Shown: positions 45,601 through 48,600 of the stretch, piece by piece
How the letters are laid out: each line of letters opens with the position of its first letter
How positions within the stretch are numbered: position 1 is the stretch's first letter
Source of the DNA: Mycteria americana
Lineage: Eukaryota > Chordata > Aves > Ciconiiformes > Ciconiidae
Assembly: GCF_035582795.1 (NCBI RefSeq)
Contig: NC_134371.1
Coordinates: 48,339,001 to 48,403,000 of the forward strand
Length of the DNA: 64,000 bases
Reading direction: 5' to 3'
Made by a program: the position numbers and the translations under genes
The notes under the pieces: generated by a model
Database searches by the model: none
Told to the model about the DNA's origin: nothing
The model's input: the letters and a program-made list of their open reading frames with translations, nothing else

Positions 45601-48600
45601 CAAAATATTCTTCAATTAACTTAGTTATCTTTCTATAATTACTTTTCTTTACTCCTTATATAAATTTTGAATTTTTCAAACCAGTAAAAATGTGAAGTTT
45701 GAAAATAAACCTGAAGTACCTCTCTGTTGTTTAACTGTAAATTAAAATAATGATTGTCAATAATTCTTAACTCTTGTTAGTCTTGTGCTTTAAAGCCAGT
45801 ATGAGACATGCAAGTATGCTTTGGGGAAGGGGAAAGGCTTTTTATCCTTTGATAAACATTGCTGCTTTGGTTTCTTTAGGCTGCAAGACATGAAACTGCA
45901 CACTAGGTCAATATCACAACCTTTCAGGTATTAACTTTAAAATTATAGTTCTAAACGTATACCACTCAGGTCTTAAATTTTCAGTGTTTTGAATTATACT
46001 TACCACATCAATTGATTAGCAATTTCAGACTTCTGAGAAGTGGCAGGTAACAAATTTTTCTAAACACCTTCAAATAGGGGGTCAAAAAAAAATCTAATAG
46101 CAGAGGGGTACAGTTCTACTTCAGGGACACCTTGAATTCTTCTAATAAATAATTAGCACATACAAGTAATTTCCTCAGTCACATTTTCTAATATCTATGC
46201 TGTTACGCAATGAAGGATGACTAGTTAACTCATAACCACTTTATCCCTGTAAAATTAAATACTTGTCTCAAAAACGTAAATTGGCTACATATTGCCAGCA
46301 TATCACAATTTTTGTCCTGTGTGTTTTAGTAGATGAACTAGAGGTATTGTTTAGTGGATACAATCAGTACTTTTTTTTTTAGATGTCCCAGATAAATACT
46401 GAGTTTTAGTACCTTTTCATATTTTAATACAGGGTCCTCACTGTCCACTTTACTGCATGCTTTGTTCAGAACTTTCTATGGAGCCAATAAAGCCAATAGT
46501 TTCTTCTGGTTTTCCAAATGTTTATTCATGATGTTCTCATGAAAGCTACAGTGTTGTTTTTTTCTACTTGTACTTGCCTCATAAGCACAAAAAATATTCT
46601 TTCTCAAATTTACCATATTTAAAATTTATAATCAAATTTACAAAAAGTTTGATACAAAATGGACACTTAGCCTTCACAAATTATCAAGGTGAAAAGTAGC
46701 CTATAACTGTATAATGTGGTACAGCAGGGGAAAAACCTGGGAGTGGGATATTTGAAATGTTTTTTTTAAAAAGATATTTGAAAACGGGCAAACTGTTGAG
46801 TTTTTGCTGTTGAGTTCTCAATACTCAGACTTGAGAATTCCTACTTTTTAAAATACCAGTCTATGTATTGAAAGACTGTATGTGTTTCTGAGATGTATAT
46901 TTCAATTACAAAAATCTTGCTTCTCACTAAAACTCTGCACTCCTTTTAGACTGAATAATTCCGGTAGCACAGAAGGATCCATGTCTCCTCTGAAGGCCTC
47001 CAAAGTGATGGCAGTTAATTCACCATCTGCAGAAAGAATAAGCAGGATTCCCACATCCTCAGGCTCTAACCTTAAAAGGTTTTTTCTTCTTCTCATTTTG
47101 GTACAAATACTTACTGTATACTACAATGGTTTTCAGCACATATGCAGTCTATGAAGCACTTGCTGTTCTTGGGTGTCAGAAGGCTTAAATTTACTTACAA
47201 AGTGATTAGCTGTTCCATTAGCCAAACTTTAGTTGCCTGCAGATTTAAAAAACAAACAAACCCCAAAACCTATACTACTGGTATGAGAGTTTTGGTGGGA
47301 TTATATCAAGTCAGAAACAGTATTACGTTCCTCAGGTGGTTGTTGTTTGGTGGGTTTTTGGTGTTTTTTGTTTGGTTTTTTTTTTTTTTTTTACTCATCT
47401 GAGTTTATAGAAGTTTTGCAAATATTCCCACAAGTCTATATACTATTAATCTCAGAAGAATACTGAGTGGTAATTAATATAATTTTTATGAACCCTTGAT
47501 TTATTGCTATTTAATTCCATTATTAATATTGTACTAAGTAATTATGGATGTTAAATGAAAATTAGAATGTTGATAATTTAAAAATTATCTTTTTAATAAC
47601 TTCTGGGCAGAAATATTTACTTGAAGAAAATAACTAACTTATAGATATTTCAGGACACCCTATTTTTATTCTCAAATTCTATCATATTACTTCTTGGTTA
47701 CTTGAAGACTTGTATCACATTACAGATTTCAAGAGACAGAAGAGGAGTTCTTAAGCTGTTACATGTACACAAAGTACTTCAATGTAGATCAGCCACTGCC
47801 TAAACCTTTTAACACAATCTCCTGCATGTGCATATGGTTTGACAGAGGTGAAAGCTGGCCGTGGTAGTGCTTGAATAAACAAAGTTTGGGAACTCCTGAC
47901 AAAGAATTCTGGTTTTCATTATTTGAGAGCTAGAAGATGAACCTGTGTGCAAACACAAATTATTTCAGAATGGTCTGTGTTATTCACCTAATGTGTTCTG
48001 AATTGTCTGTTATTTTTTTGTATATATCTGTACATACCTTGTGTGTATTTTTTTTTTTTTCCCCCCCCTGCATGTGTTTTCCATTCAGCATTTCCATAAA
48101 CTCCAGACTAGCCAGTTCTCTAGGGAACCTGTATGCTGCTTCAGATGATGATGAGAGCAAAATGACATCATCGTCCTCTAGGACAGGTTTTTCTGTAAGC
48201 CAAATCTCCAGCCACTTGAATGGCAGCTTGCAGCTGCCTCACAGAAATAACCATGAACTGAACAACAACTTATACAACAGAAACAGCAGTAGTGGCAACA
48301 ACCTGAGCAGCCAAACCAGTTTTCACAGCACCGTGACAGATGAGCTCACATCAACCTTCCTTTATGGGCCTTACAACTCCTCCAGCACGATACCAGAGTC
48401 AATCAATTCCTGTAAGTTCGTAGTCACAACAGCACTTTGAGGCATCTGACCGATTCTTATCTTCCTTGCTTCTGTGAGCAAAGCTGTCACCAAAAAATCT
48501 TAACCCAGCATAATTCTCTGACTTCCTTTAATGTTTCTGAACGACACCTTTGTCTGTTACCTTTTTAAGCTTTTTTTCCATCTCTTTCAAGCATCTAGAT

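Follow-up and report, generated by a model that had tools for sequence, protein, structure and literature searches.

The window, that is the whole stretch of 64,000 nucleotides analysed here, contains twelve exons spanning 3596..47078 (+) which form a single open frame and match the human CDC14A sequence. The first exons of the gene lie outside the window and the gene spans more than 53 kb here. The encoded protein is homologous to CDC14A over its whole length, its best matches are named CDC14A, and its identity to bird CDC14A proteins reaches 96% across 535 residues. On the same strand, after CDC14A, lies an intact open frame of 362 amino acids (62152-63240, +) which we take to be GPR88 from its sequence and from human gene order, where a GPR88-like gene presumably likewise follows CDC14A. 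The features relevant to what follows are:

3596-3671, 11623-11715, 19684-19763, 28696-28762, 30952-31014, 35261-35348, + strand: upstream CDC14A exons 1-6 of twelve
37130-37360, 39704-39842, 42601-42757, 45187-45299, 45880-45927, 46950-47078, + strand: upstream CDC14A exons 7-12 of twelve
48089..48411, + strand: CDC14A penultimate coding exon (323 nt), from splice sites and open frame
48341..48351, + strand: putative site of an ancestral net 5-nt loss, from protein comparison, after the Asp of TDE and before the latent Gln codon (TDEYSIYQPSF in palaeognaths)
48349..48411, + strand: latent ancestral frame of 21 residues, unread, overlapped by the frame used
48397..48408, + strand: TCAATCAAT tandem repeat; losing one 4-nt unit yields the oscine ending ESIP/SLQ..
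48412..48417, + strand: splice donor gtaagt, after CCT; read-through product CKFVVTTAL, then stop
57151..57180, + strand: last coding exon of CDC14A; frame used (T)TC CCT TCA GCC TGA, giving FPSA and stop; ancestral frame SLQPEYVQY and stop

The penultimate exon is flanked by attcag on its 5′ side and gtaagttc on its 3′ side. Its first base completes a split Ser codon, 107 whole codons follow, and the frame used leaves the exon in phase 1. The donor preceding it (47079-47084) reads AAAAG/gttttttc, a poor match to the consensus; the join still yields the expected reading. When the twelve upstream exons are joined to this exon and to the last one, a single open frame results that ends ...ESINSFPSA. 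The +1 frame, read from 48349, reaches the donor in phase 0 and continues into SLQPEYVQY of the last exon. The resulting latent tail of 29 residues is 86% identical to the tails of turtle and emu and 83% to those of rhea and ostrich, with E-values of 1e-18 to 1e-21 computed against only 126 CDC14A proteins, and this match to the outgroups is not due to chance. The 20-residue latent piece alone gave a weak match (E 0.27) to human CDC14A. A first-pass annotation of this DNA had proposed a frame break between the CDC14A frame and its ancestral tail, and the open-frame joins and the outgroup alignment bear this out: its coordinates, exon lengths and phases were all correct when the joins were rechecked, the break indeed lies outside any homopolymer, and normal splicing gives the ...ESINSFPSA end that it foresaw.

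Distribution and origin of the shift

Relatives were compared as protein models, mostly automatic gene models, from a database clustered at 90% in which records are cluster representatives. With region 330-539 of the window protein as query, 335 proteins were matched, and the shifted segment was found in 119 of the best 120 by reading the tails and by a pattern count; the ranking was made against a shifted query, so that a neognath without the shift may have escaped. The 119 proteins belong to Galliformes, Anseriformes and many Neoaves, with chicken, ducks, falcons, owls and passerines among them. The sole exception among these best 120 is the flamingo model P0107, which has an ancestral-frame tail and which its source labels LOW QUALITY PROTEIN. 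Given this label, we take it that the annotation pipeline probably mended a true frameshift, rather than that the species lacks the shift.

A second search with the 40-residue ancestral-frame tail as query (E<=10) returned eight proteins in total: flamingo P0107, Rhea P0121, emu (Dromaius) P0122, ostrich (Struthio) P0123, the turtle Chrysemys P0124, the lizard Zootoca P0125 and two models of Corvus moneduloides which match via a restored end. At this threshold no unshifted neognath appeared besides the flamingo model, and no crocodile was among the eight matches. The Rhea, emu, ostrich, turtle and lizard proteins are without the shift and keep the ancestral tail. The three palaeognaths read TDEYSIYQPSF[MT][GR]LT[AT]PP[AT]RYLSRSIPSLQSEYVQY, which implies an exon of 328 nt (n=3) versus 323 nt in the window, a net change of -5 that is not divisible by three and equals +1 modulo 3. 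The first-pass annotation had thus been right about the change modulo 3; the loss of eight bases or the insertion of one that it offered as examples does not agree with these lengths. The bases lost would lie within 48341..48351, as judged from the protein comparison.

The set of 126 proteins obtained from both searches includes 39 that end in FPSV (33), FPSI (4) or FPSA (2). In 24 records the phase-1 frame continues beyond the donor, while some of the others terminate close to or at the end of the exon or use other exons; P0014, P0023, P0030, P0040 and P0070 are joined otherwise at the junction (phase-1 read-through). The FPSA ending of the window, due to an ancestral-frame Ser to Pro change at 57163-57165, is shared with Pelecanus P0015 and P0028, most such endings being FPSV. 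All five gruiform records (P0044, P0062, P0063, P0095 and P0096, from Psophia, Balearica twice, Porphyrio and Heliornis) stop after SSS or SSS plus N/D, as if there had been a further change in the segment. Three proteins of 603-627 amino acids ending in FPSV (P0048, P0056 and P0018) stem from contigs of 3642, 3718 and 2312 bases. Since these contigs measure at most 3.7 kb and the gene more than 53 kb, they are most likely spliced transcripts; P0048 and P0056 are almost identical to chicken, and on the tree P0018 falls with Cairina.

We placed the tail states on a tree of 68 rows, built without the tail columns by a quick method under a simple model, which leaves most forks open other than those given here. 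Two changes are required. The neognath branch has an SH-aLRT support of 99, and the shift arose once, on this branch. The restored rows (15/15) form one clade with a support of 86, in which Atrichornis is sister to the other 14 (96). The window protein lies nearest to Rissa by path and to Strix by identity (97% over 509 columns); support for this placement is weak.

These data bear directly on the age of the change, which the first-pass annotation had taken to be recent, or else an assembly error, on the grounds that the latent frame is still conserved. A recent mutation or an error in the sequenced individual would fit the 83-86% identity that the latent frame retains with palaeognath and turtle tails, as well as the ancestral-frame tail of the LOW QUALITY flamingo model. 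However, 119 of the 120 best relatives (of 335) have the same shift in many independent assemblies, it is present in transcript-sized contigs, and in simulations described below the latent identity persists when selection acts on the new frame alone. The shift shared by these 119 relatives, together with its absence from the palaeognath, turtle and lizard proteins, leads us to reject a recent or erroneous origin as extremely improbable, and in view of the simulations the argument from conservation fails. The annotation had also considered that related birds might share the shift along with a further exon that restores the frame: the first part is what we find, but such an exon is unusual, one chicken model (P0075) having it.

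The oscine ending

The pattern count over the 126 proteins detected 22 records with ESIP or ESIS ahead of the junction, all of which we take to be oscine passerines, the NCBI lineage giving order and family only. Fourteen of them reach SLQSEYVQY, seven continue in phase 0 (..VSH..) and P0100 uses another exon; none of the 17 suboscine records is restored. The oscine ending reads ...ESIPSLQSEYVQY, about 20 residues remaining in the shifted frame. In the window exon, an in-silico deletion of 4 nt within the TCAATCAAT repeat leads to an identical product from nine deletion starts (48397-48405), and this product is the oscine ending save for the window's own Ser to Pro change. The frame thus appears to be restored in a clade nested within the shifted birds, as read from protein models. 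The parrot Nestor (P0109) ends in ESMKSLQSEYVQY and its relative Strigops in HSMNSFPSV, so the Nestor ending is either a model artefact or a second restoration. Chicken P0075 reaches SLQSEYVQY via an extra exon. Restoration of the end may therefore not be confined to oscines, if these two models are taken at face value.

Constraint on the two reading frames

The shifted segment has a mean pairwise identity of 0.79 versus 0.89 upstream in the exon (108 rows), and none of the upstream blocks of the same length scores as low. At several positions, such as Y92, P94, S97 and S104, the residue is identical in all of the 104-108 rows or in all but one. We read this pattern as a real constraint on the segment, which would be weaker than elsewhere in the exon; the conservation could also stem from splicing signals close to the donor rather than from the peptide. 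It may be argued that the segment has no function, the CDC14A tail being dispensable and drifting and the oscine restoration a matter of chance. The low rank of the segment among equal-length blocks would agree with this, as would the gruiform models that break off after SSS, but near-invariant positions are not expected from free drift over the bird tree and SLQSEYVQY is kept in 14/14 of the restored oscines that reach the last exon. We consider a dispensable tail unlikely, if still the most serious of the alternatives.

A different question is whether the latent frame is still in use. In the new frame, a Met before Ile (ATG A.., the T to M change in SSSMIPES) forces a TGA in the latent frame. 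This occurs in 12 of the 126 records, from Falco, Aegotheles, Rissa, Strix, Caloenas, Chloroceryle, Merops and Guaruba, and closes the latent frame in at least seven lineages; the hoazin P0090 reads MV and has no forced latent stop. The latent frame is thus not open across relatives, as programmed frameshifting or dual coding would have it, and in the lineages with a TGA it is not kept for translation. In simulations with selection on the new frame alone, latent identity remained at 75-88% for 0.15-0.25 mutations per site, so the 83-86% identity to palaeognaths needs no special cause. At least 20 of the 21 latent residues stayed identical in 1-20% of the runs with selection. Between the window and flamingo, 21/21 latent residues before the last exon are identical, a figure that selection on the new frame alone would rarely give at high divergence, and which we do not take as evidence for dual coding.

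Dual coding would mean that neognaths still translate the latent frame, by way of a restoring exon, internal splicing or ribosomal frameshifting, and that it is conserved for this reason. The flamingo identity over 21 residues could be cited in its favour, as could chicken P0075, in which the last nine residues are put back in phase, and the fact that removing 48195-48339 (GTAAGC...GACAG) from within the exon joins ..RTGFS to the ancestral tail in the latent frame. Against this stand the TGA codons forced in 12/126 records. In addition, a search with the extra-exon tail of P0075 matched P0075 alone, neither functional splice sites nor a usable frame are apparent for the matching window stretch 50309-50347, and by eye no pyrimidine tract precedes the acceptor of the putative internal intron. 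Dual coding is therefore rejected for lineages with the latent TGA, and elsewhere its odds are low; overall we regard it as highly improbable. As a candidate for a cassette exon like that of P0075, the stretch 50309-50347 was a weak match (11/13) whose nearest acceptor-like site leads, by eye, to a TAA across the junction, and it was discarded. The internal-intron candidate at 48195-48339 has a workable frame and a poor acceptor, and is probably due to chance.

A possible history of the CDC14A tail

We consider it very probable that a net 5-nt loss shared by neognaths gave rise to a new tail which was fixed, then kept under purifying selection, and later partly repaired in oscines by a 4-nt deletion. 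The loss in the penultimate exon would have occurred on the neognath stem, after the split from palaeognaths, and would have shifted the last 21 codons of the exon. The new frame would run without an early stop, in phase 1 across the donor and with termination four codons into the last exon (FPSV/I/A), and it is presumably because of this lack of an early stop that the gene survived. The change would be limited to a tail that looks disordered. As the stop lies in the last exon, transcript decay is not expected. Once fixed, the new tail would have been held by purifying selection, albeit weaker than on the remaining exon. On the oscine stem, contraction of the 4-nt repeat beside the donor would then have restored the frame and the terminal SLQSEYVQY, with about 20 residues staying shifted. 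The tail change in bird CDC14A thus appears to be a stable remodelling of the protein end, not a sequencing slip, and would constitute a two-step compensatory frameshift whose uncompensated intermediate is still alive in many orders.

Compensatory frameshifts are usually assumed to cross a short-lived, harmful intermediate, and screens drop states in which a single indel survives. Pairs of compensatory frameshifting mutations are a known kind of event (Biba, Klink and Bazykin 2022, PMC8935012). On the description given there, the vertebrate screen retained only pairs of 1-2 nt indels that lay on a single branch and whose intermediate had not survived. The CDC14A pair differs in involving net changes of 5 and 4 nt on two well separated branches, the intermediate being the state of the other sampled neognaths. 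It falls outside a filter demanding one branch and indels of <=2 nt each, and the bird of the window has the first indel only. Since the screen, so described, removed surviving intermediates and indels of more than 2 nt, the CDC14A case could not have been included; the main text of that paper does not mention CDC14A. Our literature search returned no paper joining CDC14A, frameshift and birds and none on a neognath frameshift in CDC14A, and a search on the C-terminus, deafness and infertility gave no match.

The gene STK33 is described as a unitary pseudogene in neognaths, disrupted on the branch that separates them from palaeognaths, by an event dated there to about 100 million years ago (PMC4509753). 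CDC14A resembles it, as far as that description goes, in having been disrupted on the same branch; unlike STK33, which was lost entirely, CDC14A stays open and the tail alone is replaced. In humans, the equivalent exon is the one after c.1421, and the frame-breaking splice variant p.Val472Leufs*20 has been linked to recessive deafness (PMC6982189). According to the same account this variant removes the whole exon-encoded tail, whereas in birds roughly the final 29 residues are replaced, and CDC14A is tied to hearing in humans and to male fertility in mice. The C-terminal domain is stated to participate in centrosome localisation (PMC6082843).

Two cautions arise from this locus. Frames that are latent but conserved are not necessarily recent errors, and annotation pipelines may mend true frameshifts, as is probably the case in flamingo. 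More tentatively, and at a little less than an even chance, the frameshift may have become fixed and persisted over tens of millions of years as a new, selected C-terminus in almost all of the neognath radiation, the oscine stem then reusing the original peptide end, which had lain dormant in the 3′ untranslated region. If this is true, the crossing of a fitness valley would be directly observed with its intermediate alive, and the ancestral, shifted and restored CDC14A tails could be compared in living birds. Among neognath birds the single-indel state is the rule, and living species show three types of tail, so the effect of each step would be measurable.
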